Virus record (IMG/VR): IMGVR_UViG_3300036766_000661
Location: 1 to 35,322 of that record
Reading direction: 5' to 3' (one strand)
DNA length: 35,322 nucleotides
From: a virus
Each line of letters starts with the position of its first letter. Position 1 is the first letter of the stretch. Positions 3,043-35,322 of this stretch are shown here, one piece after another. The notes under the pieces were generated by a model, which had not been told where the DNA came from, did no database searches, and saw only the letters and a list, made by a program, of their open reading frames with translations. A program made the translations under genes and the position numbers.

Positions 3043-3117
3043 CGCGGGCTGGGGAAGCGGCATCCCGGCGGCCTCATAAGCCGCAGGTGCCCGGTTCGAC
3101 TCCGGGGCACGCTACCA
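3043..3117 (+). tRNA. tRNA with anticodon CAU, initiator-like
   Basis: A full cloverleaf fits. The acceptor strand is CGCGGGC (3043-3049). The D-stem is GGGA/TCCC around loop AGCGGCA. The anticodon stem GCGGC/GCCGC is perfect around loop CTCATAA (anticodon 3075-3077). The variable loop is AGGTG, the T-stem CCCGG/CCGGG surrounds TTCGACT, the 3' acceptor is GCACGCT, and A73 plus an encoded CCA end the gene at 3117. The first pair (C1 with T72) is mismatched and pair 11:24 is purine-pyrimidine, both traits of initiator tRNAs. The 31:39 pair is C-G rather than the initiator G-C, and the acceptor has one further mismatch (G5/A68). It could be tRNA-fMet-like, elongator Met or Ile(CAU). Confidence 0.75.
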
Positions 3118-3471: not shown

Positions 3472-3677
3472 TGATCCATGCCTTCATCGACCAGCAGCTC
3501 GTGCGTGACGGCTCAGGCATCATCCACCGCCGTCTCATCATCGCCGGCCGCCCGTTCGACGAGTGCGACCCGACGCCCTGCCGCCTGCTCGTGCGGCTCC
3601 CGGACGACGTCCGGGACGCGGAGCTGTGCATCGTGTGCTGGCAGCCGCGCCGCAGCGGCGTGCCGGAAGTGGCGTGA
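3471..3677 (+). CDS. Small hypothetical protein (68 aa) in the lysis cassette
   Basis: The frame begins at ATG 3471, overlapping the stop of the XhlA-like gene, and ends in a TGATG overlap with the peptidase start. The product is soluble, beginning MIHAFIDQQLVRDGSG, with one mid-chain Cys pair region (DECDPTPCR) and ICIVCW-like cysteines near the end (ELCIVCWQ). I do not recognise it. Double overlaps with both neighbours and the absence of a competing frame support it. It could be a small adaptor of the lysis cassette. Confidence 0.6.
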   Translation: MIHAFIDQQLVRDGSGIIHRRLIIAGRPFDECDPTPCRLLVRLPDDVRDAELCIVCWQPRRSGVPEVA

Positions 3678-4393: not shown

Positions 4394-4690
4394 ATGGACG
4401 CACCGACGCTCGGAGCCCTCCAGACCGTCGCCGGGGCGACGATCCTCGTGGCCGCGCTCATGCAGATCCTGCTCGGCGCGCTCCGGCTCGCCCCGGCGAC
4501 GCAGGATCGCTTCGGTCCGCTCCTCGCGGTCGTCGTCGGGGTCGTCGTGGTGGAGGTCGCCACCTTCACGCTGCTGTCGGGGCCCTCCCGAGCGGACGTC
4601 GTGCAGGGCGCCGTGAACGGGATCTTCGCGGGCCTCGCGGCGATCGGCGTGCACTCGGTGGTCACCAACATCAGCGCGACCGGCCAGTGA
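4394..4690 (+). CDS. Holin-like membrane protein
   Basis: The 98-residue protein has three hydrophobic segments: ~8-27 (LQTVAGATILVAALMQILLG), ~43-62 (LLAVVVGVVVVEVATFTLLSG) and ~72-92 (AVNGIFAGLAAIGVHSVV). Short polar tails and this size fit class I phage holins, which open the inner membrane at the time of lysis. It starts four bases after the peptidase stop, with GGGAGA upstream. Holin families diverge strongly, so the call rests on topology and position. Confidence 0.65.
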   Translation: MDAPTLGALQTVAGATILVAALMQILLGALRLAPATQDRFGPLLAVVVGVVVVEVATFTLLSGPSRADVVQGAVNGIFAGLAAIGVHSVVTNISATGQ

Positions 4691-4694
4691 CCCC

Positions 4695-4853
4695 GTGGCG
4701 CCCATCTTCGCGGCGATCCTCCCGGTGATCCTCCTGGCGATCGGCGCCGGGCTTCGCCATGCCCAGCAGCGCCGGCGCGATGCGGAGCTGCAGGCAGAGG
4801 ACGACGCGCTCGCGGCGTGGCTCCGGGCGACGTTCGGCGGGGACCGCGCCTGA
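4695..4853 (+). CDS. Small one-helix membrane protein (52 aa)
   Basis: GTG 4695 opens a 52-residue frame with an N-terminal membrane helix (PIFAAILPVILLAIGAGL) followed by a charged, helical tail (RRRDAELQAEDDALAAWL). It lies between the holin-like gene and the HNH gene, with a TGATG overlap downstream. A helix plus a charged cytoplasmic or periplasmic tail resembles holin-associated or spanin-like helpers of lysis cassettes, but no family can be named. Confidence 0.6.
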   Translation: MAPIFAAILPVILLAIGAGLRHAQQRRRDAELQAEDDALAAWLRATFGGDRA

Positions 4854-5257
4854 TGGCCACCGTCTGCCTGGTGCCGGGCTGCCCGAACCTCCGGCCCTGT
4901 CACCACGCACGCACCTCGAGCCGCAATCACCACGGCGTCAGCCGGCAGGCACGGGGCTACGGCGCCGCCCACCAGCACGAGCGCACCCGATGGGCAGCCG
5001 CGGTCCGATCCGGCACGGTGCGCTGCGCGCGTTGCGGTCTACCGATCCGGCTGGGCGAGCGCTGGGACCTGGGTCACGCGCCTGATGGCGCAACCTGGAC
5101 AGGGCCCGAGCACGCTGCCTGCAACCGAGCGGACGGGGCGCGTCGATCGAGGGGTAGGGGGGTCGAAATCCCTGCAGGGGACGCCCCCAGCCAGGACCGC
5201 ATGGCAGCCACCTTCTTGGTCGATCGAGTTCAGAACTTTCGGGGCGGAATCTCGTGA
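4853..5257 (+). CDS. HNH endonuclease next to the terminase genes
   Basis: The 134-residue protein carries an HNH core: RCARCGLPI, then WDLGH, then GPEHAACNRADGARRS. These give the CxxC zinc pair, the first HNH histidine, and the later His/Cys/Asn. An N-terminal Cys/His cluster (CLVPGCPNLRPCHH) may bind a second zinc. HNH proteins beside terminase are known in HK97-like cos phages to work with terminase at the packaging cut. The start ATG 4853 overlaps the preceding stop. The last ~30 codons run over a GC-rich repeated DNA element (5145-5211) and may be shaped by that element rather than by protein function. The stop overlaps the terminase small subunit start (GTGA). Confidence 0.8.
   Translation: MATVCLVPGCPNLRPCHHARTSSRNHHGVSRQARGYGAAHQHERTRWAAAVRSGTVRCARCGLPIRLGERWDLGHAPDGATWTGPEHAACNRADGARRSRGRGVEIPAGDAPSQDRMAATFLVDRVQNFRGGIS
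5145..5211. other. Candidate cos/packaging element, copy 1
   Basis: A bipartite sequence, GGGTAGGGGGGTCGA (5152-5166) plus AGGACCGCATGGCAGCCAC (5193-5211), lies at the HNH-terminase boundary. Both blocks recur in the same order and near-identical spacing at 33423-33489. It includes the palindrome CCCTGCAGGG (5170-5179). This boundary is where cos lies in several cos-type phages, so a terminase recognition or cutting site is inferred. Confidence 0.45.
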
Positions 5258-5697
5258 AGGGCGGCGCACGCGTGCGATCGGGCCCGCCGGCTGATCCGAA
5301 CGCCGTCCAGCCCGAGCAGTTCATCGAGCTCCCCGCCACCCATGAAGGTGCCGCCCCGCCCTGGCCGATCACGCCCAAGCCGACGACGCTCGAGCTGGCG
5401 ACTTGGGAGCGCGAGTGGCGCCGACCCGAGGCCGACCAGTGGGAGAAGCGCAGCCTCCAGGTCGAGGTCGCCATATACGTCCGAACTCTCATCCGTGCCG
5501 CCAGGCCCGGGGCGACCGTCGCACTCCTCTCGGAGCGAAGGCGCCAGGCGGATTCGCTCGGCCTCACGATCGGCGGTTATCGAGCGGCGAAGTTCACGTC
5601 ACAGGTGGACCCGACGCCAAAGCAGCGACAGCGCGCGACTGGCACCGACGGCACGCCGGCCCGCTGGAAGCCGGAGGTCATCGATGGCACCGGCTGA
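5254..5697 (+). CDS. terS: Terminase small subunit
   Basis: The 147-residue product begins with GTG 5254, overlapping the HNH stop. It has a Gly/Arg-rich, proline-containing N-terminus (ARVRSGPPADPNAVQ), a linker ending in the APPWPI segment, and a helical core (LATWEREWRRPEADQWEK, then EVAIYVRTLIRAARPGA). This layout is common to small terminase subunits of actinobacterial siphoviruses, which recognise the packaging site. The end overlaps the large subunit start by 14 bases. Confidence comes from pattern plus position between HNH and the ATPase. Confidence 0.75.
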   Translation: MKGGARVRSGPPADPNAVQPEQFIELPATHEGAAPPWPITPKPTTLELATWEREWRRPEADQWEKRSLQVEVAIYVRTLIRAARPGATVALLSERRRQADSLGLTIGGYRAAKFTSQVDPTPKQRQRATGTDGTPARWKPEVIDGTG

Positions 5698-7399
5698 GCG
5701 CGGGCGGCCGATGTACGTCGTCCCCAACTGGATCGAGCGCCACTGCATCATCCCCGACGGGTTCCGGGCGGGCGCGCCGTTCCGGCTCTACGAAGACCAG
5801 GGTGCCTACATCCTCGCCTTCTACAGCGTGCGACCGAACGCGGTCTGGGAGCCGGCTAACCCGGTCAAGGCGCCGGCGTTCCTCATCCGCCGCGCGCTGA
5901 TCGTCGGCCCCCAGAAGGTCGGCAAGGACCCCGCCGCCGCGGCGCACATCTGCGTCGAGGGTGTCGGGCCCGCGCTGTTCGCGGGCTTCGCCGGCACCGA
6001 CGATGGCTACTCCTGCACCGCTCATGGGTGCAGTTGCGGCTGGGAATACCCGTACGACCCGGGCGAGCCAATGGGGATGCGCTGGCCCACACCGCTCATC
6101 CAGATCACTGGCGTCTCTGAAGGCGCGACCGACAACACATACGGCGCCCTGCGACCGATGATCGACAACGGGCCACTCCACGACCTCATCCCCTACACGG
6201 GCGAATCGCTGATCCGCCTGCCCGCCGGCGGCGACAGCAAGATCGAGCGTGTCACGAGCAGCGCTCCGGCCCGACTGGGCGCGCCGTCGACGTTCGTAAC
6301 GCACGGCGAGGCCGGGCTGTACACCGACCGCAACGGGATGACGAAGGTGGCCGAGACGCAGCGTCGCAACTGCGCCGGCATGGGCGGCCGGACCACGGCC
6401 AACACCAACGCGTGGGATCCGGCACAGAACAGTGACGCGCAGCGGGCCTGGGAGAGCGTGCATCCCAAGGACCCGAAAGTCGCGCCGCTGACCGATGTCT
6501 ACATCCAGTTCCGCCAGCCGCCCGCCAAGCTGTCGTTCCTCAACCGCGAGCATCGCTGGCGCATCTACCAGGCCATCTACCCGGCCGACGTCCGCCGCGA
6601 GAACGGGGGCCATCTCGATCTGAACTCGATCGAGCCCGAGGCGGTCGACCTGATGCGCACGAACCCGGCTGACGCGGCCCGCTTCTTCGGAAACAAGCTC
6701 GTCCCGGGCAGCGGCGCGGCCTTCGACGTCGCGCTCTGGGAGAAGCGCCGGGCGAGCCGCAAGCACGAGGTGCCCGAGGGCGCACTCATCACGATCGGCG
6801 CCGACGGCTCGGTCAGTCGGGACCACTTCCCCCTGATCGCCACCGAGGTCGCGTCGGGCTACCAGTGGCCGCTCGCGATCTTCCGTCCCGAGGACCATCG
6901 CGGGCGGATCCCGGCTGACGTCGTCAGCGCGGTCGTGGACCAGGCCTTCACCGACTTCGACGTCTGGCGTCTCTACGGCGACCCGCCGTTCATCCAGGAG
7001 ATGCTCGATGCGTGGGCCGGCCATTACGGCCGCGACCGGATCATCGAGTGGCCGACCAACCGGCCTCGGATCATGGCCCTCGCGACAAGGTCGTGGGACG
7101 AGGCGATCGCCGGCGGATCCATGAGCCACTGCCCCGAATCGCACCCGCTCTGCAAGACGTTCAGCTGGCATGTTGCCAATGCAGTGCGGCACGAGACCGG
7201 CTACCGCGACGACGGCGGCAGCCTCTGGTACGCCGAGAAGGAAGCGCCCAACAGCCCCGACAAGATCGACTCCGTGCCAGCCGCGATCCTCTCGTGGGAG
7301 GCTCGCAACGACGCGATCGCCGCCGGTGCGCTCAACGTCGAGACCTTCGTCTCCAACTACGAAACGCGCGGCCTGGCATTCGTTGGGCCAAAGCGATGA
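5684..7399 (+). CDS. terL: Terminase large subunit
   Basis: The 571-residue packaging motor starts at ATG 5684, inside the end of terS. The frame is open further upstream, but that part is a shadow of terS. The N-terminal ATPase has the Walker A-like GPQKVGKD (residues 75-82), with Asp where the usual Ser/Thr stands; related terminases also deviate there. A Walker B region probably lies around FVTHGEAGL. The C-terminal nuclease fold begins near ITIGADGSVSRDHFPLI and includes later acidic residues (YGDPPF, SWDEAIAGG). It cuts concatemers and drives DNA into procapsids. The stop overlaps the next gene. Confidence 0.9.
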   Translation: MAPAERGRPMYVVPNWIERHCIIPDGFRAGAPFRLYEDQGAYILAFYSVRPNAVWEPANPVKAPAFLIRRALIVGPQKVGKDPAAAAHICVEGVGPALFAGFAGTDDGYSCTAHGCSCGWEYPYDPGEPMGMRWPTPLIQITGVSEGATDNTYGALRPMIDNGPLHDLIPYTGESLIRLPAGGDSKIERVTSSAPARLGAPSTFVTHGEAGLYTDRNGMTKVAETQRRNCAGMGGRTTANTNAWDPAQNSDAQRAWESVHPKDPKVAPLTDVYIQFRQPPAKLSFLNREHRWRIYQAIYPADVRRENGGHLDLNSIEPEAVDLMRTNPADAARFFGNKLVPGSGAAFDVALWEKRRASRKHEVPEGALITIGADGSVSRDHFPLIATEVASGYQWPLAIFRPEDHRGRIPADVVSAVVDQAFTDFDVWRLYGDPPFIQEMLDAWAGHYGRDRIIEWPTNRPRIMALATRSWDEAIAGGSMSHCPESHPLCKTFSWHVANAVRHETGYRDDGGSLWYAEKEAPNSPDKIDSVPAAILSWEARNDAIAAGALNVETFVSNYETRGLAFVGPKR

Positions 7400-7629
7400 C
7401 CGGACCGTCCGCGGCCGTGCGCCGGTTCAGGTTCCGGCTCGTGGCGACCGCCTCGATCCGCCGCTTCCTGCGCACCCCGGGCGACGTCCTGACGATCGTC
7501 TCGCTCGGCCTGCTGTTCGCGGGCCTCGCGATGGTGGCGGTACCGCTGGCCCTCGTCGTGACCGGCTCACTGCTGGTGCTTCTGACGCCGGTCGGCGCGG
7601 CAATCCGCATCCTGCTGAGGGGCCGCTGA
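7396..7629 (+). CDS. Small two-helix membrane protein
   Basis: ATG 7396 overlaps the terL stop, and the stop overlaps the portal ATG (TGATG). The 77-residue product has a basic N-terminus and two predicted membrane helices (VLTIVSLGLLFAGLAMVAV and LALVVTGSLLVLLTPVGAAI). A membrane protein between terminase and portal is unusual but is fixed here by overlaps on both sides. Function is unknown. Given that the major capsid protein also has a membrane-like segment, a link to head assembly at the membrane is possible but speculative. Confidence 0.65.
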   Translation: MTGPSAAVRRFRFRLVATASIRRFLRTPGDVLTIVSLGLLFAGLAMVAVPLALVVTGSLLVLLTPVGAAIRILLRGR

Positions 7630-8882
7630 TGGGCTTTTTCGACGCGGGCCTGAAGGCCGGCATGGGCTATCCGAACCCCGGTTGGTCACCGAGCCTCGGC
7701 GGTGGTGGTCTCGGCTCGGACACGATCAGCGGAGCGCTCATCACGTACGACCGGGCCCTGACGGTCGGCGCCTTCCAGGCTGGGATCAGGTTGATCGCCG
7801 AGGACATCGCGTCGCTGCCGTTCCTCACCTACCAGCGCCTTCCCGTAGGCAAACGCAGGGCCCCCGAGCACCGGCTGTACACGGTGCTCCACGACTCGCC
7901 CAATCCCGAGATGACCTCGATGGTGTGGCAGGAAACGGGCATCGGGCACGTCTACTCGTGGGGCAACTGGTACTCCGAGAAGGAGCTCGACGGCCAGGGC
8001 CGGACGGTACGGATCTGGCCCCTGCGCGTCGACCGGATGAAGGTCGATCTGACGACCGGCGTCAAGGTGTTCAAGTACCGCCTGCCCGACGGCACCGGCG
8101 TCATCCTGCCGGCGAAGAACGTCCTACACGTCCCCGGGTTCGGCTTCGACGGCCTGGTCGGCTACAGCCGGATCAGCCTCATGCGCCGCCAGCTCGAGTC
8201 GGCGATTGCGGTCGAGGAATACGGCCTCCAGACCTTCGCCAACGGGGCGCAGCCGGGCGTCGTCATCAAGCATCCGTCGAAGCTTTCCGACACGGCCAAG
8301 TTGAACATCAACGAGAGCTGGCAAGAGCAGCACCGGGGCCTCACGAACGCCCAGCGGAGCGCGATCCTCGATGAGGGGATGAGCATCGAGCAGGTGGGGT
8401 TCAACCCCGAAGATGCCCAGTTCCTGGAGAGTCGCCGCTTCAGTGTCGAGGAGGTCGCCCGGGGCCTGCGCCTGTCGCCCCACAAGCTCTCCGACTTTTC
8501 GCGGGCGACGTTCAGCAACATCGAGGAATCCAACATCGACCACGTCGTCAGCACGCTCGGCCCGCCGATCGTGCGCATCGACCAGCAGGTCAAGAAGGAT
8601 CTCTTCGACGGCGACCGGGAGTTCTTCGCCGAGCACCTGGTCGACGGCCAGCTGCGCGGCAAATTCCTCGAGCGGATGCAGGGCCACCAGATCGCGATCG
8701 GTATCGGGATGGAATCGCCCGACGAGGCCCGCGAAACGGAGAACCGCAACCCGATCCCCGACGGTGCGGGCGCCACGTTCCTCGCGCCGCTCAACCTCTC
8801 GCCCCTCGACCTGCTGGCGGCGGCTGTGCTCGCCCGCACGAACGGCTCATCCCCGGCACCAACGAATGGAGTGACGAAATGA
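7629..8882 (+). CDS. Portal protein, HK97 type
   Basis: A 417-residue portal. It has the typical opening in which a variable Gly-rich N-terminus precedes LTVGAFQAGIRLIAEDIASLPF. It continues with LHDSPNPEMTS, GNWYSEKELDGQGR, WPLRVDRMKV, VLHVPGFGFDGLVGYS, and the C-terminal SRATFSNIEESNIDHV crown/stem region. Portals form the dodecameric ring through which DNA enters and to which the tail joins. The start ATG 7629 overlaps the previous stop, and the end overlaps the protease start (AATGA). Confidence 0.92.
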   Translation: MGFFDAGLKAGMGYPNPGWSPSLGGGGLGSDTISGALITYDRALTVGAFQAGIRLIAEDIASLPFLTYQRLPVGKRRAPEHRLYTVLHDSPNPEMTSMVWQETGIGHVYSWGNWYSEKELDGQGRTVRIWPLRVDRMKVDLTTGVKVFKYRLPDGTGVILPAKNVLHVPGFGFDGLVGYSRISLMRRQLESAIAVEEYGLQTFANGAQPGVVIKHPSKLSDTAKLNINESWQEQHRGLTNAQRSAILDEGMSIEQVGFNPEDAQFLESRRFSVEEVARGLRLSPHKLSDFSRATFSNIEESNIDHVVSTLGPPIVRIDQQVKKDLFDGDREFFAEHLVDGQLRGKFLERMQGHQIAIGIGMESPDEARETENRNPIPDGAGATFLAPLNLSPLDLLAAAVLARTNGSSPAPTNGVTK

Positions 8883-9640
8883 CCACGGCTTACAAGACGT
8901 TCCACCCCGTCGACCTCAAGCTCGACGACACGGGCTCCGTCACGGTCGCCTTCGCCCAGCTCAACGTCATCGACCACGACGGCGATTTGACGCTGCCGGG
9001 CGCGATGCCGGCGAAGAGCGTGCCCATGTCGAACTACGGCCACACGAGCTGGGACGGGGCCCTGCCGATCGGCAGGGGCTCGATCGCCGAGGAGGGTGGC
9101 TGGGCCATCTTCGCCGGCAAGTTCCTCATGGGGACCGACCAGGGCCGCAACGCCCACGCGACCGTGAAGGCGATGGCCGAGCTCCAGGAGTGGAGCTACG
9201 GCTACGAGGCCAAGGACTTCGGATACGAGACCCGCGAGGGCCAAACGGTTCGGATCCTCAAGCGCCTCGACGTCTTCGAGGTCAGTCCCGTTCTCGTGGG
9301 CGCCGGCGTCGGCACCCACACCCGCGCGATCAAGAGCGGCGGTCCGGGACCGGACGTGCCGTATGCCGAGCACCTCGCCTGGGTCCAGGCCGCGGTCAAG
9401 GCGCTCACCGATCGGACCACCGATCGGGCCGAGTGGCGAGCCAAGGAGGGTCGCTCCCTCTCCGTGGCGAACCTCGAGCAGCTCGACGGCATCGTCAAGG
9501 GCCTTCGGGGTTTCAGCCCCGTGGCCGACGAGCTCGCCGCGCTGCTCGAGGCGACGGATCCCGACAAGGCTGCCCGCTTCCGGGCCGGCGAGGTCGAGGT
9601 CCTGCTTGCCCAGGCCCGTCTCCACGGCGTCAGCGTCTGA
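8879..9640 (+). CDS. Prohead protease, HK97 family (S78)
   Basis: The 253-residue protease shows an N-terminal beta domain, the catalytic His55 in NYGHTSW and the catalytic Ser106 in LQEWSYGYEA, with VFEVSPVLVGAG closing the domain. It cleaves the capsid protein's N-terminal delta region and itself during maturation. The C-terminal ~90 residues are helical (e.g. VANLEQLDGIVKGLRGF) and could act as a scaffold. It sits between portal and major capsid protein, the standard HK97 order. Confidence 0.92.
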   Translation: MTTAYKTFHPVDLKLDDTGSVTVAFAQLNVIDHDGDLTLPGAMPAKSVPMSNYGHTSWDGALPIGRGSIAEEGGWAIFAGKFLMGTDQGRNAHATVKAMAELQEWSYGYEAKDFGYETREGQTVRILKRLDVFEVSPVLVGAGVGTHTRAIKSGGPGPDVPYAEHLAWVQAAVKALTDRTTDRAEWRAKEGRSLSVANLEQLDGIVKGLRGFSPVADELAALLEATDPDKAARFRAGEVEVLLAQARLHGVSV

Positions 9641-9667: not shown

Positions 9668-11098
9668 ATGCGCACACACATTCCCATCCAGCGCTACGCA
9701 GGAAGCATGGCGGCGTTCGGCGTCTACGGCCTGCCGACCTTCGCCGGCCGGCGCGTGTCCGGCCGGACGCTCGCGATCCTCGGGATCGTCGGCCTGCTGT
9801 TCACGCTCTACGCCTTCGGCGTGATCGACCTCGCCGCCATGTCGGGCGGCGGGCTCGTGATCGGCGCCGGCACGACATCCGCCGAGCTTGGCACCAAGCT
9901 CGCGCGTGAACGACAGGCGCACGGCACCTGGCTCGCCGGCTACAAGAAGGACGGCGGCTACGACATGCCGGCCGACAAGGTCACCGAGTTCCACACCCGC
10001 AACGACGCCCTCGCTGAGCTGCAGAAGCAGTACGAGGTCGCCCTCCAGGTCGAGCGCTCGGCCGCCGAGAACGAGGCCAAGCTCCTGCCCCAGGGCACGA
10101 TCGCGGCCAACAAGGGCGGCGCAGCCGAGTTCAAGGACGGCGAGCGCATCGAGACCAAGGCTCAGGTCGACGCCGCGTTCAAGGGGGCTTTCGGGCTCCA
10201 CGCGTCGACGCTCGCCGCGATCGCCAAGGGCGGCCGCGGAACGGTCAGCTTCGAGCTCAACACGAACCTCAAGACCCTGCTCCAGGTCACGGTGCACGCG
10301 CCCCAGGCCGATCGGCAGGGCACCTTCGCGTCGGCGCTCTACTTCGGCGACGTCGAGGACACCTTCCCCCACGGCTCGACCACCTCGAAGTCGGTCGACT
10401 ACTTCATCCAGACCACCGACACCGACAACGCGGCGGCCGTGGCCGAGGGCAGCGCGCCGACCGATTCGGCCTTCGCCTGGACCCTGACCACCGACCCAGT
10501 CGAGACCGTCTCCGACTGGATCCCGATGACCCACGAGGCGATCGCCGACAACGTCGGCTTTCAGTCGACGGTCGAGGGGATGTTGGCCCGCCGGCTCCAG
10601 AAGAAGTCGAACAACCTGATCCTCGCCGGCGACGGCAACACGCCCAACCCGACCGGGGTCTTCATCCGGACCGGCTTCCAGACCCAGGCCAAGGGCAGCG
10701 ACCCGGCCTTTGACGCGATCCACAAGGCCATCACCAAGGTCGAAGTGACGGGCGACGCGATCTGCAACTTCATCTACGCCCACCCCACCGACTGGCAGAA
10801 CATGCGCCTGACCCGGACCGTGGACGGCATCTACATCCTGGGCAACCCGGCCGATTCCGCGCCACTCAACCTGTGGGGTATCCCGGTCAAGAAGACCACG
10901 GGCATCGGCTCGGCGGGCACCGCGGGCGTGGGCGACACCAGCTACGCCGAGGTCACCGAGCGTGAGGGTCTGACCGTCGAGATCAGCACCGAGCACTCGA
11001 CCTTCTTCACGGAGCGCAAGGTCGCCGTCCTGCTCTACCGCCGGTTCGCGGTGGCCGATCACCGGCCCAGCGCGTTCGCGACGGTCACCGGGCTCTAG
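9668..11098 (+). CDS. Major capsid protein, HK97 fold, with an N-terminal membrane-like helix
   Basis: The 476-residue protein is preceded by GGAGA (9660-9664). Residues ~84-160 are a charged helical delta domain (LAELQKQYEVALQVERSA) that the prohead protease would remove. The HK97 fold follows, with the E-loop/P-domain region and motifs such as VSDWIPMTHEAIADN, GDGNTPNPTGVF, YAHPTDWQNMRL and GIPVKKTTGIG. Unusually, residues ~34-53 (TLAILGIVGLLFTLYAFGVI) form one uninterrupted hydrophobic stretch long enough to cross a membrane, ahead of the delta domain. An internal ATG at 9839 would bypass it but has no ribosome site. Alternative: the segment is a hydrophobic scaffold helix. Confidence 0.92.
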   Translation: MRTHIPIQRYAGSMAAFGVYGLPTFAGRRVSGRTLAILGIVGLLFTLYAFGVIDLAAMSGGGLVIGAGTTSAELGTKLARERQAHGTWLAGYKKDGGYDMPADKVTEFHTRNDALAELQKQYEVALQVERSAAENEAKLLPQGTIAANKGGAAEFKDGERIETKAQVDAAFKGAFGLHASTLAAIAKGGRGTVSFELNTNLKTLLQVTVHAPQADRQGTFASALYFGDVEDTFPHGSTTSKSVDYFIQTTDTDNAAAVAEGSAPTDSAFAWTLTTDPVETVSDWIPMTHEAIADNVGFQSTVEGMLARRLQKKSNNLILAGDGNTPNPTGVFIRTGFQTQAKGSDPAFDAIHKAITKVEVTGDAICNFIYAHPTDWQNMRLTRTVDGIYILGNPADSAPLNLWGIPVKKTTGIGSAGTAGVGDTSYAEVTEREGLTVEISTEHSTFFTERKVAVLLYRRFAVADHRPSAFATVTGL

Positions 11099-21011: not shown

Positions 21012-21686
21012 TTGACGCGCCTCGTCGTCCCGCCCCGCCGCCTGGTCCTGCCGCAGCTGACCGTGATCCAGTCGGCGACGGGCTGGACCGCGTCGTCGAC
21101 CCCCGCCGACGTGACCGTGAACCTCGGGCGGGCCCCCAGCCAGCCCCTGCTGGGGTTCACGTCCAGCGACTCGGCCGTGGGGAACTACCTGACCAAGCCC
21201 CAGACCGGCGCGGCCTACAAGTGGTGGGGGCCGGTGGCCAGCTCCGGCCCGCTGAGCAGCTACGGCTCGTCGGGGCTGTGGGTCGGCAAGCGCCTGGGCG
21301 CCGAGCAGCCGGTCGTCGGGACCCACCTCTACTCGGGGGGTGTGTTCCCGGATGCGAGCGTCGTCGAGATCGCCGGCCTCCTGGGGGAGGTCGTCTGGAC
21401 GACAGCCCTGTACGCGAGCGGGACAGGGGTGACCCTCGACGCGCCGCCCTGGCCGATCTGGGAGGCCGGGCTGCTTCTCGTGACCGGCGGACGGTTCAAG
21501 TCCGGCGGCTCCGGGGGCGCCACCCCCAGCGTCTCGCCCTCCCAGGGCGCGGCCATCTCCTCGACGGGCGGCGGCGTGCTCGGCCGCCTCACGATCTATC
21601 GCTACATCCCGGGCACCCGACCGGTCGTCTCCTGGTCGTTCGCCCGGTCCACGGCCTGCTCGGCCTTCGCGGCGATCATGAGATGA
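21012..21686 (+). CDS. Minor tail / adsorption protein
   Basis: TTG 21012 starts a 224-residue Gly/Ser/Trp-rich, strand-rich protein (FTSSDSAVGNYLTKPQTGAA, KSGGSGGATPSVSPSQGAAI). Aromatic residues spread along the chain (WWGP, LWVGK, PPWPIW) fit a sugar-binding or coat protein. It is the last gene of the late operon, with a terminator downstream. The family is not recognised. Confidence 0.6.
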   Translation: MTRLVVPPRRLVLPQLTVIQSATGWTASSTPADVTVNLGRAPSQPLLGFTSSDSAVGNYLTKPQTGAAYKWWGPVASSGPLSSYGSSGLWVGKRLGAEQPVVGTHLYSGGVFPDASVVEIAGLLGEVVWTTALYASGTGVTLDAPPWPIWEAGLLLVTGGRFKSGGSGGATPSVSPSQGAAISSTGGGVLGRLTIYRYIPGTRPVVSWSFARSTACSAFAAIMR

Positions 21687-25476: not shown

Positions 25477-25694
25477 CCGCCGACCCCGGCTCCCTCGTCG
25501 CCATCAGCCGCGCCACCGCGATGCTGGCCGAGGCGCGGACGCTCGAGGACGTGCGCGGCATCCGGGACCTGGCAGAGGCCGCCCGCGTCTACGCCCGAGC
25601 GCACGACCTCGGGAGCGAGGCGGCCATGCGCGAGGGGCGTGTCTGGCACGTCCTGTGCGCGCCGGCCAAGAAGCCCACGGCGGGCGTGCTCTAG
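25473..25694 (+). CDS. Small helical early protein
   Basis: GTG 25473 overlaps the cro stop. The 73-residue product has a helix-rich core (AISRATAMLAEARTLEDVRG, then IRDLAEAARVYARAHDLG) of a type often found directly before MT-A70 methyltransferase genes in phages, where longer versions continue into a second helical region. Here the second half diverges (VWHVLCAPAKKP). Function unknown. Confidence 0.65.
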   Translation: MTADPGSLVAISRATAMLAEARTLEDVRGIRDLAEAARVYARAHDLGSEAAMREGRVWHVLCAPAKKPTAGVL

Positions 25695-26245
25695 TGGCCG
25701 CCTACCGGACGCTGGTCGTCGACCCGCCGTGGCCCGAGCGCGGCGGGGGCGGGCGCGGCGCGCAGGAGCACTACGCCGTCATGGGCGTCGCGGACATCGC
25801 GCCCCTCGTCACGGGATCCGCGAGCTGGACGCCGGCGGACGACGCGCACCTGTACCTGTGGGCGACCAACACGCACCTTCCCGCCGCGATCGCGATGGTG
25901 GGCGAGCTGGGCTTCCGCTACATCACATGCCTGACGTGGGCCAAGGACCGGATCGGGCTCGGGCAGTACTTCCGCGGCCAGACCGAGCACGTCCTGTTCG
26001 GCGTCCGGGGCTCGCTCCCCGTCGGGCCCGCCGACCGCCTGCCCACGCTGTTCCACGCGCGCCGCCTGGAGCACTCCCGCAAGCCCGACCGCTTCTACGA
26101 GATCGTTGAGCAGGTCAGCCCCGAGCCGCGGCTGGAGATGTTCGCCCGCCGCCGTCGGGTCGGCTGGGACGTGTGGGGGAATGAGGCGCCTGACGCATCG
26201 CAGGCGCGGTCTCAGGTGCCCATGTTCGCGGAGTCCGTGGCGTGA
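25694..26245 (+). CDS. MT-A70 family adenine methyltransferase
   Basis: The 183-residue enzyme from GTG 25694 has the catalytic DPPW near residue 10, and the later family features TWAKDRIGLGQYFRGQTEHV, HSRKPDRFYEIVEQ and GWDVWGNE. It methylates adenine N6 in DNA. Phage members protect the genome from host restriction or mark it for regulation. The frame is open upstream of the GTG but that part overlaps the previous gene. The stop overlaps the next gene. Confidence 0.85.
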   Translation: MAAYRTLVVDPPWPERGGGGRGAQEHYAVMGVADIAPLVTGSASWTPADDAHLYLWATNTHLPAAIAMVGELGFRYITCLTWAKDRIGLGQYFRGQTEHVLFGVRGSLPVGPADRLPTLFHARRLEHSRKPDRFYEIVEQVSPEPRLEMFARRRRVGWDVWGNEAPDASQARSQVPMFAESVA

Positions 26246-27624: not shown

Positions 27625-28463
27625 GCGGTCCGAAGGCGGCGACCACCACGGCCAAGGGCCGGACCTACGGTCTGGAGTTGCCCCCGCCGGATGGACTGGT
27701 TTCTCTCTGGTCGGTCACCACGATCATCGGCGGTGGTGCGCCGAAGCCGGCCCTGCTGCCGTGGGGCATCAAGGCGACCGCTGAGTACGCGGTGGCGAAC
27801 TGGGAGCGTCTCGCAGCGATGGCACGGGCAGCCGACGGGGAGCCCGATGCACTCGCGAGCGTCGTCGGATGGCTCAAGGGCGCGCCCTATCGGGACCGGG
27901 ACAAGAAGGCCGATCTCGGCACACTGTTCCATTCGATCGCAGAGGCGCACGCGCTCGGCAAGCCGCGACCGCTCGTGACCCCGGAGGTCGCGCCGCTCGT
28001 TGTGCAGTTCGAGCGGTTCCTCGCTGACTGGCGCCCTGAAATCCTCATGAGCGAGGCGACCGTCTATCACCGCGCCGAGAGCTATGCCGGCACACTCGAC
28101 GCGATCATGCGGCTCGGCGGTCGGACCGTCCTGGCCGACTACAAGACGGGCAAGGACGTCTATCCCGAGGTTGCACTGCAGCTCTCGGCGTACGCGAGAG
28201 CCGAAGGTGTCTACCTCGCGCCGGGGTCCGTCGCCACCCTGCCGTCGCTCGATGGCGCCGTGGTGATCCACGTTACCGACGCTGCATATCGGGTGGTCCC
28301 GGTCGATATCGGGGAATCGGCGTGGCGGTCATTCCGCTATGTCCGCGAGGTCTTCCGCTGGATGGACGAGATCAGCAAGGGCGTGCTCAGCGAGCCGCTC
28401 ACGGCGCCAGTCTGGCCAGCGCCCGCCCGAAAGCCACGCGCGCCCCGGAAGGTGGCCGCCTGA
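27621..28463 (+). CDS. PD-(D/E)XK nuclease, Cas4/RecB-like
   Basis: The 280-residue protein carries the nuclease core near residues 150-200: AGTLDAI with the metal-binding Asp, VLADYKTGK with the D-x-K pair, and LQLSAYARAEG with the QxxxY helix. A conserved HSIAEAHALG helix lies upstream. It probably degrades or trims DNA ends for recombination and replication. It has no cysteine cluster, so it lacks the iron-sulphur site of true Cas4. It is followed at once by the Gp3-like gene. Confidence 0.8.
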   Translation: MSGPKAATTTAKGRTYGLELPPPDGLVSLWSVTTIIGGGAPKPALLPWGIKATAEYAVANWERLAAMARAADGEPDALASVVGWLKGAPYRDRDKKADLGTLFHSIAEAHALGKPRPLVTPEVAPLVVQFERFLADWRPEILMSEATVYHRAESYAGTLDAIMRLGGRTVLADYKTGKDVYPEVALQLSAYARAEGVYLAPGSVATLPSLDGAVVIHVTDAAYRVVPVDIGESAWRSFRYVREVFRWMDEISKGVLSEPLTAPVWPAPARKPRAPRKVAA

Positions 28464-29593
28464 TGCCCATCGTGGATATCCAGCGGCAGATGGTCGAGCT
28501 CGGCCGGATCCGTACAGGTGACCAAGTCGAGTTCCAGGATCAGACCGGGAAGACGAAGCTTCGCCCCCGCAAGCTCGAAACGTTCCGACTGACCAGCCCC
28601 AGTCGTCTGCTCATCGATGCCGTCGCGGCCGCGTATGGCGGCCAAGTGAGCGGGTGGGGCGAGCAGTGGCAGGTGGTGGTGACCACAGAATCGCTGCCGA
28701 TCATGCTGCCGCCGGGGCAGGGCCTTTCGCAATGGTATGAGCTCTGGTCGGGCGGCGGCTGCCAGCGACGCTGCGACGGTCTTCGCCAAGCGATCGTGGA
28801 CGAGCCATGCGCCTGCCCGGCCGACAAGGGCGAGCGGCGCGACCTCGCGGCCAAGGGCCAGGCCTGTAAGCCCACCACGCGGCTCAACGTCGTGCTGCCG
28901 GAGCTCCCGGGGCTCGGCGTCTGGCGGTTGGAGAGCCACGGCTACTACGCCGCGGTCGAACTGGCGGGGACCGCCGAGTACCTGGCGATGGCCACAGCGG
29001 CCGGGCACCGCATCCCGGCCCGTCTGCGGCTCGTCAAGCGCGAGATGAAGCGACCCGCCACCGGGCGGGACGGCCAGCCGACCATCCAGACGCGGAAGTT
29101 CGCCGTCCCGACGATTGACCTCGACATGCGGATCGCAGATCTGCTGGCGGGCGAGATCCCGACGATCAGTGGTCGCCCCGTCGCTACCCCGGCGCTGCCG
29201 GCCGGCCCGGTCAACCGGCGCGAGCGCGTAGCCCGCCCAGCGCTTCCCTCGGGCACGTCATTGCCCGAAGAGGCCAACCTCGCGCGGCCGGGCCGACCTC
29301 CGCTGCCTGAACCGCCGAAGATCATCGAGCAACCCATGAGCGCGCCGGCGGCCGATCCGGCCGCGATTGTCCGAGCCCAGATGGCGGAGGCGGAGCCCGC
29401 GAGCGCGCCGCAGTCCGCCCCTGTGCCTCCATCCGACGCCAATTGCCGCTGGGCGCTCGGCCAGGGCCCGGGCAAGCCGGGCCTGATCTGCGGGCTGCCG
29501 CTGGCGGATGGCAAACATTCGGGCGACCACGGTTGGATCGCCATCGCGTTGAGCGCCGGTGGGCGAGTCATGCCGCCCGAACAGGCGGCATAG
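28463..29593 (+). CDS. Gp3-like protein (phiC31 RDF family)
   Basis: The 376-residue protein matches the family of phiC31 Gp3, the recombination directionality factor of a serine integrase: KLETFRLTSPSRLLIDAVAA, LSQWYELWSGGGCQRRCDG, CACPADKGERRDLAAKG, ACKPTTRLNVVLPELPGLGV and WRLESHGYYAAVELAGTAEY. The cysteines probably bind zinc. The C-terminal ~150 residues are Pro/Ala-rich and disordered. This phage has a tyrosine integrase, so the RDF role is unlikely. Pairing with the Cas4-like nuclease suggests the ancestral role is DNA recombination or replication. Confidence 0.8.
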   Translation: MPIVDIQRQMVELGRIRTGDQVEFQDQTGKTKLRPRKLETFRLTSPSRLLIDAVAAAYGGQVSGWGEQWQVVVTTESLPIMLPPGQGLSQWYELWSGGGCQRRCDGLRQAIVDEPCACPADKGERRDLAAKGQACKPTTRLNVVLPELPGLGVWRLESHGYYAAVELAGTAEYLAMATAAGHRIPARLRLVKREMKRPATGRDGQPTIQTRKFAVPTIDLDMRIADLLAGEIPTISGRPVATPALPAGPVNRRERVARPALPSGTSLPEEANLARPGRPPLPEPPKIIEQPMSAPAADPAAIVRAQMAEAEPASAPQSAPVPPSDANCRWALGQGPGKPGLICGLPLADGKHSGDHGWIAIALSAGGRVMPPEQAA

Positions 29594-29696: not shown

Positions 29697-30303
29697 CTCG
29701 TATTTCAAGGTGGTCCGCATCGCTGGCTCTGACTTTCGGACCGGCAGCGTCGACTACGGCGCGGCGCTCGTGTCGGGCCACGTGGTCCGACATCCGGGAT
29801 CGGCGATGGTCCCGGACGACGCCAGCACCTACCTGTCCGTGTCCATCTCGCCCACCGACTGCACCGGCTTTTCGTGGCCCTGCCGCCTGTTCCGGGTCGC
29901 GCCTGAGGGCGACATCCTGGGGGGCATGGACTACCCGAACAAGCGCGCCTGCCGCGCCCTGCGCGTCGTGGAGGAGCTGCCCGCGTGGCAGGCGTTCGGG
30001 CCGCACGGGCAGGACGTGGTGGCGGTCATCGATCGCGCCCGCACCCTGACGGCAGACGAGGCGAAGCGACTGGCTGCGGCTTGGACTGCGGCTTGGACTG
30101 CGGCTCGGACTGCGGCTCGGACTGCGGCTCGGACTGCGGCTTGGGATGCGGCTTGGGCTGCGGCTCGGACTGCGGCTTGGGATGCGGCTTGGGATGCGGC
30201 TTGGGCTGCGGCTTGGGCCTATCTCGTCCGCGACCTCATCACGCCGGGACAGTTCGCCCTGCTGGCAGGGCCGTGGCTCAGCGTGATGGGGGCGATGGGA
30301 TGA
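29692..30303 (+). CDS. Ala/Trp tetrapeptide-repeat protein, intact copy
   Basis: ATG 29692 (MTSYFKVVRIAGSDFRTGS) gives 203 residues. Residues ~1-120 are a folded domain ending ALRVVEELPAWQAF. Then ~12 tetrapeptides of the form A-A-W/R-T/D/A follow (DNA 30070-30220), and the end is VRDLITPGQFALLAGPW. The frame is open from ATG 29602, but that extension (MTDRVTPEVRRAVLLRDRG) looks like the beginning of a lost HNH gene. The repeats should form one long helix with a Trp/Arg stripe. It shares this repeat with the broken gene at 443. Function unknown. Confidence 0.7.
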   Translation: MTSYFKVVRIAGSDFRTGSVDYGAALVSGHVVRHPGSAMVPDDASTYLSVSISPTDCTGFSWPCRLFRVAPEGDILGGMDYPNKRACRALRVVEELPAWQAFGPHGQDVVAVIDRARTLTADEAKRLAAAWTAAWTAARTAARTAARTAAWDAAWAAARTAAWDAAWDAAWAAAWAYLVRDLITPGQFALLAGPWLSVMGAMG

Positions 30304-30932: not shown

Positions 30933-31135
30933 ACGCCTCCAGCATCGCCCAGCACCTCGGCATCCGAGTGGCGCCGGTCCGTCGCTACCCGCCAGCCTCG
31001 CACATGTCCGAGGACCTGCTGATCCGGGCCTACGGCGGGCTGCCTGCGGCCATGGACGACCTAGAGCGACGGCAGCGAGAGTTGGCGGCCGAGACGATCG
31101 CGGCGGAGCGGCGGGTCGCGGAGGAGAGCGCGTGA
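30929..31135 (+). CDS. Small helical early protein (68 aa)
   Basis: ATG 30929 overlaps the preceding stop. The product begins MNASSIAQHLGIRVAPVRRY and ends in a charged helix (DDLERRQRELAAETIAAERR) that may form a coiled coil. Its stop overlaps the methyltransferase start. The longer open frame upstream is a shadow. Unknown function. Confidence 0.6.
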   Translation: MNASSIAQHLGIRVAPVRRYPPASHMSEDLLIRAYGGLPAAMDDLERRQRELAAETIAAERRVAEESA

Positions 31136-32301
31136 CGCCGTACTTCACCGACGCCTGGCTCTCCATCTTCGAGGGTGACTGCCGCGAGGTCATGGCGACG
31201 ATGGAGCCGGAGTCGGTCCATTGCGTCGTGACGAGCCCTCCATATTGGGGGCTTCGGGATTACGGGACTGCGACGTGGGCCGGCGGGGATGCGGGCTGCG
31301 ACCACAAGGGGGCACCGCTGGCCTCCTCCTCCTCCTCCTCCTTGGCGGGCTATTCGTCGGAGCACGTCAAGGTTCGGACGAACACGATGCCGATGGGTGC
31401 GACGTGCCGGAAGTGTGGCGCCACCCGCATCGACGCTCAACTCGGACTCGAACAGACGCCCGAGGAATACGTCGCTGTGATGGTGGCCGTGTTCCGGGAG
31501 GTTCGGCGCGTCCTGCGAGCCGACGGCACGCTCTGGCTCAATCTCGGGGACAGCTACGCGACTGGGGCAGGAGCCGTGGGTGATCGTCCTGGCGGTGGCG
31601 CTCAGGGTGACGTATGGTCGGGCGCGGGTCCTCGCGGGACGCGAGGCGGGTCATCGAAGCAACCACACACGGGAGCGGCGATCGGTCCGATGACGCAGCC
31701 GAACAGGATGCCGTTGCCCGGCCTCAAGCCCAAGGATCTCGTCGGTATCCCATGGCGGGTCGCGTTCGCCCTCCAGGCGGACGGCTGGTACCTGCGTTCG
31801 GACATCATCTGGGCCAAGCCGAATCCGATGCCCGAGTCGGTGACGGACCGCCCGACCAAGAGTCACGAGTACCTGTTCCTGCTGAGCAAGAGCGCCCGGT
31901 ACTTCTGGGACGCCGACGCGGTGAGGGAGCCATCCACCGGCACGCCGGGCGTCGGCAAGATGTCCTTTCGCGCCGATATCGGGGCCGGTGGCGTATGGCG
32001 CGACGAGGAGCGTACGGGCGACGTCTCGCAGCGCAACATCCGCTCCGTCTGGACAATCGCCACGGCGCCCTACCCCGGCGCCCACTTCGCGACCTTCCCA
32101 CAGAAACTGGTCGAGCCCTGCATCAAGGCGGGCTGCCCCGAGGGCGGGACGGTACTGGATCCGTTCGCGGGCACGGGGACCGTCGGTCTGGTCGCGCAAC
32201 GCCTCTCCCGCCGCGCGGTCCTCATCGATCTGAATGCCGACTACCTGCGCCAGTGCCTCATCCGCAACGCGCAGAAGCCACTCGGACTGGAGGCGGGCTG
32301 A
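31132..32301 (+). CDS. Beta-class DNA methyltransferase (N4-C or N6-A)
   Basis: The 389-residue enzyme has catalytic motif IV TSPPYWGLRDYG at ~37-48 and, near the C-terminus, motif I TVLDPFAGTGTVGLVAQRL. That order marks the beta class of N4-cytosine/N6-adenine methyltransferases. Between them lie a target-recognition region with a TCC-repeat-encoded Ser run (residues ~64-69), a CRKCGAT zinc-type pair, and conserved WLNLGDSYA and SDIIWAKPNPMPESV. GTG 31132 overlaps the previous stop. No restriction nuclease is nearby, so this is a solitary methyltransferase, likely for anti-restriction or control of replication. Confidence 0.9.
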   Translation: MTPYFTDAWLSIFEGDCREVMATMEPESVHCVVTSPPYWGLRDYGTATWAGGDAGCDHKGAPLASSSSSSLAGYSSEHVKVRTNTMPMGATCRKCGATRIDAQLGLEQTPEEYVAVMVAVFREVRRVLRADGTLWLNLGDSYATGAGAVGDRPGGGAQGDVWSGAGPRGTRGGSSKQPHTGAAIGPMTQPNRMPLPGLKPKDLVGIPWRVAFALQADGWYLRSDIIWAKPNPMPESVTDRPTKSHEYLFLLSKSARYFWDADAVREPSTGTPGVGKMSFRADIGAGGVWRDEERTGDVSQRNIRSVWTIATAPYPGAHFATFPQKLVEPCIKAGCPEGGTVLDPFAGTGTVGLVAQRLSRRAVLIDLNADYLRQCLIRNAQKPLGLEAG

Positions 32302-33170
32302 TGCCCTGGAGCCGTCTCGACGACACGTGGTACGACCACCCCAAGCTGATGGAGTTGCCCGCCCGCCTGCGCAACGCCGGGGCCGGTCTGCGGGATCGGG
32401 CGCTCTCCTGGAGCAACCGTCACCTCGCCGATGGCCATGTGCCCAATGCGGTGCTGCGGACGCTCAACTGCGCACCGGACCTCCGCGCCGCCTTGATCGC
32501 CGTGGGCCTCTTCCACGACGAGGGCACTGGCGTCGTCATCCACGACTACACGGACTACAACGAGACGCGGGCCGAGTTGCTGGAGCGACGGGCGAAGGCC
32601 GCCAAGGCCGGCAGGCTCGGTGGTCTGGCGAAGAAGCGAAACGCTAGCGATCCGCTAAGCATCGAGCCTATCGATCCGCTAGCACCTGCTAGCCAGTCGC
32701 TACCGCAATCGCTAGCCGAGCCGGCTACCAACGCGCGCCCGCGCAACGCGCCCGCGATCGCGCCGCCGCCTGGGCGCAACGCGCGACCCGTTCCCAGTCC
32801 CGTTCCCAGTGATTCTCCTTCTAGAGAGAATCGTTCTACAACCGCCGAACCCCGAGGTCCCGGGCTCAACGGGGCAGAGCGAGCCGACATCCAGGCGCTG
32901 CTCGACCGTGGCTGGAAGCGCGTCACGGCGAAGCAACGGTCGACGCTCGACGAGGTGCTCGATCGGCACGACGTGACGGGTCCAGACTGGGCGGCCAGGG
33001 TCATCCGCAACACGCCAGCCGATGCGGATCCGCTCGCCGACGTCATGGCCGCTGACCGCGCCTGGCAGGCCGAGCAACGAGAGCGAGCCGACCGCGAGGA
33101 TGCCCGGTGGGCAGCGACCAAGCGGGCCGAAGCCGAGCTCGCCGCCGGTGTCCTCGAGGCGCTGACATGA
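32301..33170 (+). CDS. Replication initiation protein (lambda O-like organisation)
   Basis: The 289-residue protein begins MPWSRLDDTWYDHPKLMELP, continuing with LRDRALSWSNRHLADGHVPN. This is the winged-helix DNA-binding start of phage replisome organisers. A long low-complexity linker (~115-190) follows and the C-terminal ~95 residues are helical and charged. The linker's DNA (32643-32832) is dense in short repeats and ends in an AT-richer palindrome, so the origin probably lies inside the gene, as in lambda O. It would bind these repeats and recruit the host helicase. No helicase or primase gene is seen in the window. Confidence 0.75.
   Translation: MPWSRLDDTWYDHPKLMELPARLRNAGAGLRDRALSWSNRHLADGHVPNAVLRTLNCAPDLRAALIAVGLFHDEGTGVVIHDYTDYNETRAELLERRAKAAKAGRLGGLAKKRNASDPLSIEPIDPLAPASQSLPQSLAEPATNARPRNAPAIAPPPGRNARPVPSPVPSDSPSRENRSTTAEPRGPGLNGAERADIQALLDRGWKRVTAKQRSTLDEVLDRHDVTGPDWAARVIRNTPADADPLADVMAADRAWQAEQRERADREDARWAATKRAEAELAAGVLEALT
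32643..32832. other. Candidate replication origin within the replication gene
   Basis: Seven GCTAGC-type boxes occur in 32643-32729: four exact GCTAGC (32643, 32678, 32688, 32711) plus GCTAAGC and two GCTACC. They use four CTA leucine codons, otherwise very rare here, which suggests selection on DNA. Next come two GCGCAACGCGC units, a perfect tandem 12-mer CCCGTTCCCAGT (32787-32810), and the inverted repeat GATTCTC...GAGAATC (32811-32832) in locally AT-richer DNA. Iterons followed by an AT-rich unwinding site are typical of phage origins. Confidence 0.6.
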
Positions 33171-33424
33171 GCCGAGCGTCGGCATGCGTCCTCTGCGGCA
33201 GCGAGACGTCCGAGACGCACCGATCGCTCATCGCATGGACGGATCCGCAGCCCGGCCGGGCGTATGCGACGGGCGATCGGTGCCTCGATCGGCCTGCCTG
33301 CCGAGCCCGCGTCGAGGCGAGCGGAGAGCGCTGGGAGGTTGACGACGGGACGCCTGCACCGCGGCCTGTGGCCGTGCAGTCCGAGCCGGCCGGCCATGAC
33401 GAGCTCGAGGACGTCTTCGCATGA
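33167..33424 (+). CDS. Zinc-ribbon protein near the resolvase gene
   Basis: The 85-residue protein starts at ATG 33167 with a CVLCGSETSETH zinc pair and a second cysteine cluster (DRCLDRPACRARVE). It has an acidic C-terminal tail. It overlaps the replication gene's stop. Probably a small nucleic-acid-associated zinc protein. No exact family. Confidence 0.6.
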   Translation: MSRASACVLCGSETSETHRSLIAWTDPQPGRAYATGDRCLDRPACRARVEASGERWEVDDGTPAPRPVAVQSEPAGHDELEDVFA

Positions 33425-33546
33425 TCGACCGGGTAGGGGGGTCGATTTCTCGTGGATCGGCCGTCGGCGTAGGACCGCATGGAAGCCACGCTTGCGCGCG
33501 GAACGGTTTCGCCGTTTTTGTTAGCGTGCCCCGGAGCCCCGCATGA
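33421..33546 (+). CDS. Possible 41-aa ORF over the second cos-like element
   Basis: ATG 33421 overlaps the previous stop and its TGA overlaps the RusA ATG, so it fills the gap exactly. The product is Gly/Ser/Val-rich (MIDRVGGSISRGSAVG...). Most of its DNA is the copied element at 33423-33489 and a terminator-like hairpin, so it may be open by chance. Confidence 0.25.
   Translation: MIDRVGGSISRGSAVGVGPHGSHACARNGFAVFVSVPRSPA
33423..33489. other. Second copy of the bipartite cos-like element
   Basis: GGGTAGGGGGGTCGA (33431-33445) and AGGACCGCATGGAAGCCAC (33471-33489) repeat the blocks at 5152 and 5193. The first is exact, the second has one mismatch, and the spacing differs by one base. A preceding GATCGA is also shared. 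Its place next to RusA in the replication region is unexpected for a packaging site. Confidence 0.5.
33502..33521 (+). terminator. Intrinsic terminator-like hairpin before rusA
   Basis: AACGG-TTTCG-CCGTT is followed by TTTG. The stem is short (5 bp) but has the T-run that other hairpins in this genome lack. It would attenuate early transcription before the resolvase gene. Confidence 0.5.
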
Positions 33547-34001
33547 CCGCCCGCATCGTCTTCGAGGTCGCCGGTCACCCCGTCCCCCAGGGTTCCACCA
33601 GGGCCTTCGTCCGCGGCAAGCGGGCCATCACGACCAACGACCCAACCGGGCGCATCGAGCGTTGGCGCGGCGACGTGCGGTCAGCCGCCAGGGCCGTGCT
33701 GCCGCCGGGCTGGGAGCGGCTGACCGGACCCGTCGAGGTGAGCGCGACGTTCCGCATCGCCCGCCCCAAGTCGCACTTCCTGCCGGTCACCAAGTCCCGC
33801 CACGTGCCCGTCCTCCGTGACGACGCGCCGATCTGGTGCACCACGGCGCCTGACGCCGACAAGCTCCTTCGCGCCATTTTTGATGCCCTCTCGCTCGTCG
33901 TCTACGTCGACGACCGCCAGGTCGCCCTCATCGGGCCGACCGTGAAGGTCTGGAGCACGCTGCCCGGCGCGCTGATCATCGCCGGCGAGATCGTCCCATG
34001 A
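33543..34001 (+). CDS. rusA: RusA-type Holliday junction resolvase
   Basis: The 152-residue enzyme has the RusA opening (RIVFEVAGHPVPQGSTRAF) with basic residues, and the catalytic acidic motif PDADKLLRAIFDAL...VYVDDRQV, containing the three conserved aspartates. It acts as a dimer that cuts four-way DNA junctions, resolving replication and recombination intermediates before packaging. It is the last plus-strand gene of the early operon and converges with a minus-strand regulator gene 16 bases away. Confidence 0.88.
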   Translation: MTARIVFEVAGHPVPQGSTRAFVRGKRAITTNDPTGRIERWRGDVRSAARAVLPPGWERLTGPVEVSATFRIARPKSHFLPVTKSRHVPVLRDDAPIWCTTAPDADKLLRAIFDALSLVVYVDDRQVALIGPTVKVWSTLPGALIIAGEIVP

Positions 34002-34017
34002 GCCGCACCGTCCTCGC

Positions 34018-34170
34018 CTACGTCGCCGCCCAGCGCTCGACGTCGGACCACGCCCAGATCGGACCCGCCAGCGCCGCGAGCGGCTCGGGAAAGTCGGCGT
34101 GACGCCGGCGCCACGAGTGGACGGTGCCCGGCGCCGTGCCGAGACGCTGGGCAATCTCGACGGTGGACAC
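34018..34170 (-). CDS. Second HTH unit after an in-frame TGA
   Basis: GTG 34170 gives a 50-residue AlpA-like HTH: VSTVEIAQRLGTAPGTVHSW, then RRRHADFPEPLAALAGPIWA and WSDVERWAAT. It is in the same frame as the HTH gene upstream and separated from it only by TGA (34189-34191) and six sense codons (EERDDL). It closely parallels the first unit (DLVGVAEIAQRTGV...SWRRRH). The ribosome site (AGAGGA) is rather far, 13 bases. It may be a separate protein, a read-through extension, or the second half of a two-HTH protein broken by a stop. Confidence 0.6.
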   Translation of the reverse strand: MSTVEIAQRLGTAPGTVHSWRRRHADFPEPLAALAGPIWAWSDVERWAAT

Positions 34171-34188
34171 GAGATCGTCCCGTTCCTC

Positions 34189-34593
34189 TCAGCCCTTCCG
34201 TGGCCGTCCCGGCCGACGAGGGATGGTGACCCACGCGGCCACGCTGCCCCAGGACCAGACCGGTCCCGCCGCGAGCTGCACGATCGGCGCGGGGAAGTCG
34301 TCGGGATGCCGCCGCCGCCAGCTCTGGACGGTCGCGACCGCGACACCGGTCCGCTGGGCGATCTCCGCGACGCCGACAAGATCCCAGTCCGGCCGATCGG
34401 TCAAGTTGCCGGCCTCGTCCACACCGCGCATCTGGACTCGCTCCACGAGCATGTCGAGCGCCTCGGCCCGCGTCGCGAAGCCCCGACCACGCTTGTCGAT
34501 CGCATCGGCCTCGCGATCGACGATGTACCAGCGGTCGGCGAGGTCGTCGCTGCCGCTGAGCTGATTGCCTCGCTGGACCGCAAAGCGTGTCAT
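34189..34593 (-). CDS. AlpA/MerR-like HTH regulator
   Basis: ATG 34593 has GAGGAGA upstream. The 134-residue protein has an N-terminal alpha/beta domain (DRWYIVDREADAIDKRGRGF, then ATRAEALDMLVERV). A C-terminal HTH follows (WDLVGVAEIAQRTGVAVATV, then QSWRRRHPDDFPAPI), with wing WSWGSVAAWV. The HTH type is shared by excisionases and small phage regulators. It is the middle gene of a minus-strand operon that faces the RlpA-like gene, so it may control that promoter region or the early operon end. Confidence 0.7.
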   Translation of the reverse strand: MTRFAVQRGNQLSGSDDLADRWYIVDREADAIDKRGRGFATRAEALDMLVERVQMRGVDEAGNLTDRPDWDLVGVAEIAQRTGVAVATVQSWRRRHPDDFPAPIVQLAAGPVWSWGSVAAWVTIPRRPGRPRKG

Positions 34594-34942: not shown

Positions 34943-35009
34943 GCCCCTGTGTGCAGTTTCTCGCGACGATGTTGGCGCCCCTGACGCCGCCGCTGGGAGG
35001 AGCGTTGGG

Positions 35010-35322
35010 GTGAATCTCGCAGCAGCAACAACCACGGGGTGCCTCCTCGCCCTCGTCCTCATCATCGGAGCATCGGCTCCGCGCCCGGCCCAGCTTGCCG
35101 CGCCTGTCCCCTCCCGTGACCTGTCCGGGAGCGCCACGGGCGCAATGGCTCCTGGGCCGAGCGGGGCGCCGAGCGTCTCGACGGTCTCCAGTCCGCCGGG
35201 AAGTCCGAGAATCGGCCATAGGTTGGCATCGCTACCCGGACCAGATGCCCGCTTCGGCGCCCCGTGGCGGGGGGGGGGCCGCCGGCGAGCGGCGCGCCCC
35301 CCCCCCGGGGCCCCCCGCCCGG
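35010..35322 (+). CDS. RlpA-like secreted protein, N-terminal part (runs off window end)
   Basis: This GTG-start frame has a strong ribosome site (GGGAGGA at 34995-35001, 9 bases before the start). It opens with a signal-peptide-like segment: a short N-region, a hydrophobic core LLALVLIIGASA and an Ala-rich cleavage region near residue 30. A low-complexity Pro/Ser/Gly linker follows. No lipobox cysteine sits after the hydrophobic core, so secretion rather than lipidation is inferred. The frame stays open to the window end. Near 35238-35264 it encodes GPDARFGAP, which matches GPEARFGAP in the frame of the gene at the window start. I read the two as one gene split by linearising a circular sequence, giving about 223 residues. 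Bases after ~35264 are G/C homopolymers and are probably not real sequence. Confidence 0.75.
   Translation, partial: MNLAAATTTGCLLALVLIIGASAPRPAQLAAPVPSRDLSGSATGAMAPGPSGAPSVSTVSSPPGSPRIGHRLASLPGPDARFGAPWRGGGRRRAARPPPGAPRP

Follow-up and report, generated by a model that had tools for sequence, protein, structure and literature searches.

Across the window (the whole stretch of DNA that was analysed, 35,322 nt), modules for lysis, packaging, head, tail and recombination (an exonuclease and a Gp3-like protein) are found together with two methyltransferases, a replication initiator, a RusA resolvase, an excisionase and an integrase (Table 1). This gene set looks complete, and the terminase, portal, protease, HK97 capsid, tape measure and integrase, all of which were found, mark a temperate tailed phage with an HK97-type head. 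The cultured relatives, which are actinobacteriophages, are distant: the terminases of Gordonia phage Nyceirae and Streptomyces phage Kromp are about 40% identical to that of the window, and Streptomyces phage Chymera, which shares the head order terL-portal-protease-capsid, has a portal about 41% identical.

Table 1. Features of the window, in order of position.
Feature	Position	Strand	Evidence and remarks
Left copy of end overlap, CCGGACCTGAGGCCCGCTTCGGCGCCCCG	1-29	+	27/29 identical to 35236-35264
3' part of split gene	3-446	+	Linker and DPBB/RlpA-like C-terminal domain; open at left edge; stop 444-446
G+C-rich hairpin beside seam	27-72	+	20-nt arms, 85% complementary
Excisionase-like HTH protein	1170-1571	+	phrog_66, E = 5e-5
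Tyrosine integrase	1321-2511	+	PF00589, E = 1e-10; phrog_1
Lone attP core	2585-2634	+	tRNA-Arg(TCT) 3' end, loop CTTCTAA, through CCA; just 3' of integrase; tRNA identity by eye
Holin	4394-4690	+	phrog_1299, E = 4e-7
HNH endonuclease	4817-5257	+	phrog_1808, E = 2e-11; adjoins terminase (packaging region)
Terminase large subunit	5342-7399	+	phrog_19179, E = 9e-117
Portal protein	7170-8882	+	PF04860, E = 2e-88; ORF as listed, true start probably further downstream
Head maturation protease	8879-9640	+	phrog_80, PF04586
Major capsid protein	9668-11098	+	PF05065; relatives in 14 viral contigs
N6/N4 DNA methyltransferase	31132-32301	+	PF01555, E = 1e-46; right-end neighbour in gene-order comparison
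Replication initiation protein	31614-33170	+	phrog_2447, E = 4e-23
RusA-like Holliday junction resolvase	33543-34001	+	phrog_140, E = 1e-23
5' part of split gene	35010-35235	+	GTG start, Shine-Dalgarno-like GGAGG, hydrophobic N-terminus, Pro/Ser/Ala linker; frame open into 1-446 when joined
Right copy of end overlap, CCGGACCAGATGCCCGCTTCGGCGCCCCG	35236-35264	+	27/29 identical to 1-29
Artefactual tail	35265-35322	+	97% G+C; G10 and C10 in perfect 12-bp inverted repeat; no left-end counterpart

Several further features were observed. A peptidase-family protein (phrog_16701) is encoded at 3563-4390, just upstream of the holin, at the position of an endolysin, where the related contig G002 (see below) has an amidase. 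The two methyltransferases of this small temperate phage differ in type, one being of the MT-A70 type (25655-26245) and the other of the N6_N4 type. A 41-nt unit (GCCTGGGCAGCCGCC...) occurs in about 3 copies at 758-883, inside the ORF at 443-898; since its length is not a multiple of three, a change in copy number would shift the frame of this ORF. Short imperfect tandem repeats with spacings of 36, 60 and 72 bases lie in the early region at 30074-30180, downstream of the ORF at 28322-29593.

The putative attachment core was found once, with no second copy in the window and no whole tRNA called at the site. Phage genes lie to either side of it (excisionase and integrase on one, holin, HNH endonuclease, terminase, portal and capsid on the other), and the core therefore represents an attP, so that the sequenced molecule was not an integrated prophage. 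This agrees with the lone attP reported in a preliminary description of the window. The contig ends, for their part, fall within a gene, away from both the attP and the HNH/terminase region. A complete tRNA-Met (CAT) is located at 3043-3117, between the integrase and the lysis genes; a second related contig, G008, also carries a tRNA-Met upstream of its terminase. A tRNA-Arg(TCT) called by ARAGORN at 21442-21514, with the same anticodon as the tRNA fragment of the attP, is probably false, as the ORF around it has 96% G+C at third codon positions.

The two edges of the contig overlap in sequence. Between bases 1-28 and 35236-35263, 26 of 28 positions are identical, as the preliminary description had noted; the mismatches are at positions 8 and 11, and base 29 matches as well. 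By BLAST, the identity is 93% over 29 bases (E = 6e-7). Among all 28-mers of the window lying more than 1 kb apart, this is the sole pair with at least 26/28 identity, and the next-best sites for bases 1-28 have 10 mismatches on the plus strand and 8 on the minus strand. When a 28-mer was compared with a 100-base stretch in 100,000 Markov draws and approximately 100,000 window-sampled draws, neither set contained a draw with fewer than 6 mismatches, the best having 6. A chance origin of the overlap is thereby excluded. Both mismatches fall on third codon positions, one being silent (P=P) and the other an E/D exchange. Random end errors would be placed in this way in about 1 of 9 cases, and the pattern fits biological variants better than random error. 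It should be noted that a length of 28-29 bases is unusual as an assembler k-mer for such repeats; both points count against the one-turn reading of the contig given below.

The reading frames agree across the overlap (GPDARFGAP at the right end, GPEARFGAP at the left end), and joining 35010-35235 to 1-446 yields a frame of 223 residues that is uninterrupted to the stop, with a GGAGG-type site just upstream of the GTG at 35010. The joined gene and its good ribosome site, both proposed earlier, are thus borne out. Its product combines a hydrophobic N-terminus, which is encoded at the right end and is what the left part lacks, with a Pro/Ala linker and a C-terminal domain that weakly resembles DPBB_1. 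The previously suggested signal peptide would correspond to this N-terminal stretch, recognized by eye and without a preceding basic residue. The suggested RlpA-like barrel stays below threshold: residues 171-215 match DPBB_1 (PF03330) with E = 0.0023 and 18.6 bits, under the Pfam cut-off of 28.8, the C-terminal 45 residues of the protein aligning to the second half of the model. A six-frame search returned no DPBB_1 match, and neither the phage collection nor the genome contigs contained a match to the DPBB part. Comparison with PHROG, NCBIfam and PDB (by sequence) and a fold search likewise gave no supporting match, although the fold query, a mainly beta single-sequence model with a pLDDT of 51, was poor. 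An RlpA-like exported protein would therefore be a reasonable, rather than an established, reading of the product. As the left end alone encodes the barrel part, the identity of that part has no bearing on closure.

The overlap begins exactly at base 1, and the right copy of its 28 bases stops 59 bases before the right edge. Beyond 35264, the right end diverges from the left end and continues into the 58-base tail, which contains the only homopolymers of at least 8 bases in the window. With this composition, the tail looks like an artefact, and error sequence at a contig end is its simplest reading, in agreement with the earlier proposal that noise in G/C homopolymers had hidden the closure. 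The hairpin next to the seam (z = -2.5 for the DNA fold of bases 1-100) is the probable cause of the assembly break, and signal loss in a hairpin may have given rise to the tail. To call circularity, CheckV requires a repeat that is found at each end of a contig and measures at least 20 bp (PMC8116208). Here, the two substitutions and the tail prevent such a repeat.

Related capsids were found in 14 viral contigs, the two longest of which are IMGVR_UViG_3300018077_000004 (G002/L008; 36,783 bp) and IMGVR_UViG_3300036766_000102 (G008/L019; 36,237 bp). In both, the first 123 bases are repeated exactly at the end, which corresponds to circles of 36,660 and 36,114 bp; such odd-length end repeats have been ascribed by the authors of CheckV to the assembly of circular templates (PMC8116208). 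The sizes of these circles (36.7 and 36.1 kb) are near the 35.2 kb of the window. G002 resembles the window in its capsid (76% identical), portal (54%) and protease (53%), while its terminase (28%) and integrase (33%) are far less similar, and unlike the window it has an exact end repeat and lacks a credible DPBB-like homologue; a candidate match to the DPBB part was rejected, as it is 28% identical, is interrupted by two stop codons and overlaps with the region of xis and integrase. G008 is similar in size, capsid (58%) and protease (62%), but has other early genes, and no integrase homologue was found in it.

The gene order of G002 is informative about the seam. In this circular relative, an N6_N4 methyltransferase (32226-32828), an HTH_17 excisionase (32825-33214) and the integrase (32931-34271) follow one another, with lysis genes and terminase further round the circle. 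In the window, the methyltransferase lies near the right end and the excisionase and integrase near the left end, so that this order, with the methyltransferase-xis-integrase side and the lysis-terminase side in the same circular arrangement, arises only if the ends are joined across 35235/1. The agreement comes from one relative, which is a mosaic rather than a close relative, a point that speaks against the one-turn reading, and in which the methyltransferase directly precedes xis, without the rep/RusA/DPBB block that intervenes in the window. Weak evidence in the same direction comes from the HTH protein at 34189-34593, whose homologue lies at the edge of contig L010, approximately 5 kb upstream of the terminase there but in the opposite orientation relative to it. 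Searches of the viral contigs with the degenerate overlap motif and with the left and right gene halves found no match and no record spanning the seam, and those with the integrase and the portal found no relatives. A search of the genome contigs with the capsid alignment, like that with the DPBB part, gave no match, and hence neither a host phylum nor an integrated prophage for comparison.

We consider it highly probable (roughly 0.87) that the contig represents one full turn (1 to about 35235, approximately 35.2 kb) of the unintegrated genome of a temperate HK97-type siphophage, and that an assembly artefact hid its closure. The DNA would have been circular or concatemeric, or else circularly permuted virion DNA. 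The overlap, the in-frame join, the attP, the complete gene set, the gene order and the similar-sized circular relatives thus support the earlier suggestion of a probably whole, excised genome of this size. As for the cause of the break, we infer that the assembler lost its path inside the G+C-rich linker segment of a phage gene whose DPBB-like product is probably secreted. The left end would then have stopped just before the strong hairpin, and the right end would have run 29 bases into the same sequence before entering a 58-base stretch of erroneous, low-complexity G/C sequence; because of this tail and the two substitutions, end-repeat detection would not have recognized a circular contig.

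The third-position placing of both mismatches would also fit variation among strains at the seam or a genuine repeat in the linker. Strain variation or a true short repeat would leave the genome closing there, a true repeat making it slightly longer. It is conceivable, although improbable, that GPxARFGAP is a real tandem repeat and that the ends represent neighbouring copies with a short unassembled stretch between them, in a genome that is still circular and slightly longer than 35.2 kb. Assemblies typically break at repeats and in low-complexity linkers, and the adjoining gene is rich in repeats as well (758-883). However, neither the linker nor the window contains a further GPxARFGAP-like copy, as the 10 mismatches of the next-best plus-strand site illustrate, and the 223-residue join requires no insertion. 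Similarly unlikely is a seam that falls in a naturally variable or repeated linker of a secreted DPBB-like protein whose gene follows the replication genes and precedes the integrase; the two ends would then show how a host-surface or lysogenic-conversion factor varies in nature, and not an assembly error.

It is far less probable that the contig is a linear piece of a larger phage or prophage, with ends that match by coincidence or through a dispersed repeat. The record does lack an exact end repeat; yet chance is excluded by the null draws, the complete gene set comes with a size matching the circular relatives, and phage genes flank the attP on both sides. A biological terminal repeat, such as the short direct terminal repeat of a linear virion, is the least credible reading: the repeat is located near the contig ends, but these lie inside a coding gene, far from the expected packaging start at HNH/terminase (4.8-7.4 kb), one copy runs into abnormal sequence, and the records of cultured terminase relatives begin beside the terminase, with Nyceirae annotated as circularly permuted.

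The template molecule of the full-turn genome may have been a circle, a concatemer or headful-redundant virion DNA. The HNH gene beside the terminase hints at cos packaging, while Nyceirae, related through its terminase, carries an annotation as circularly permuted.

The biology of this phage is ordinary, with nothing new; the closure is useful for annotation. With it, the record becomes an essentially complete genome of a temperate phage instead of an open contig, and a gene that would be split in automatic annotation is made whole. Furthermore, it illustrates that rules based on exact repeats can overlook a circle when its ends lie within G+C-rich hairpins.
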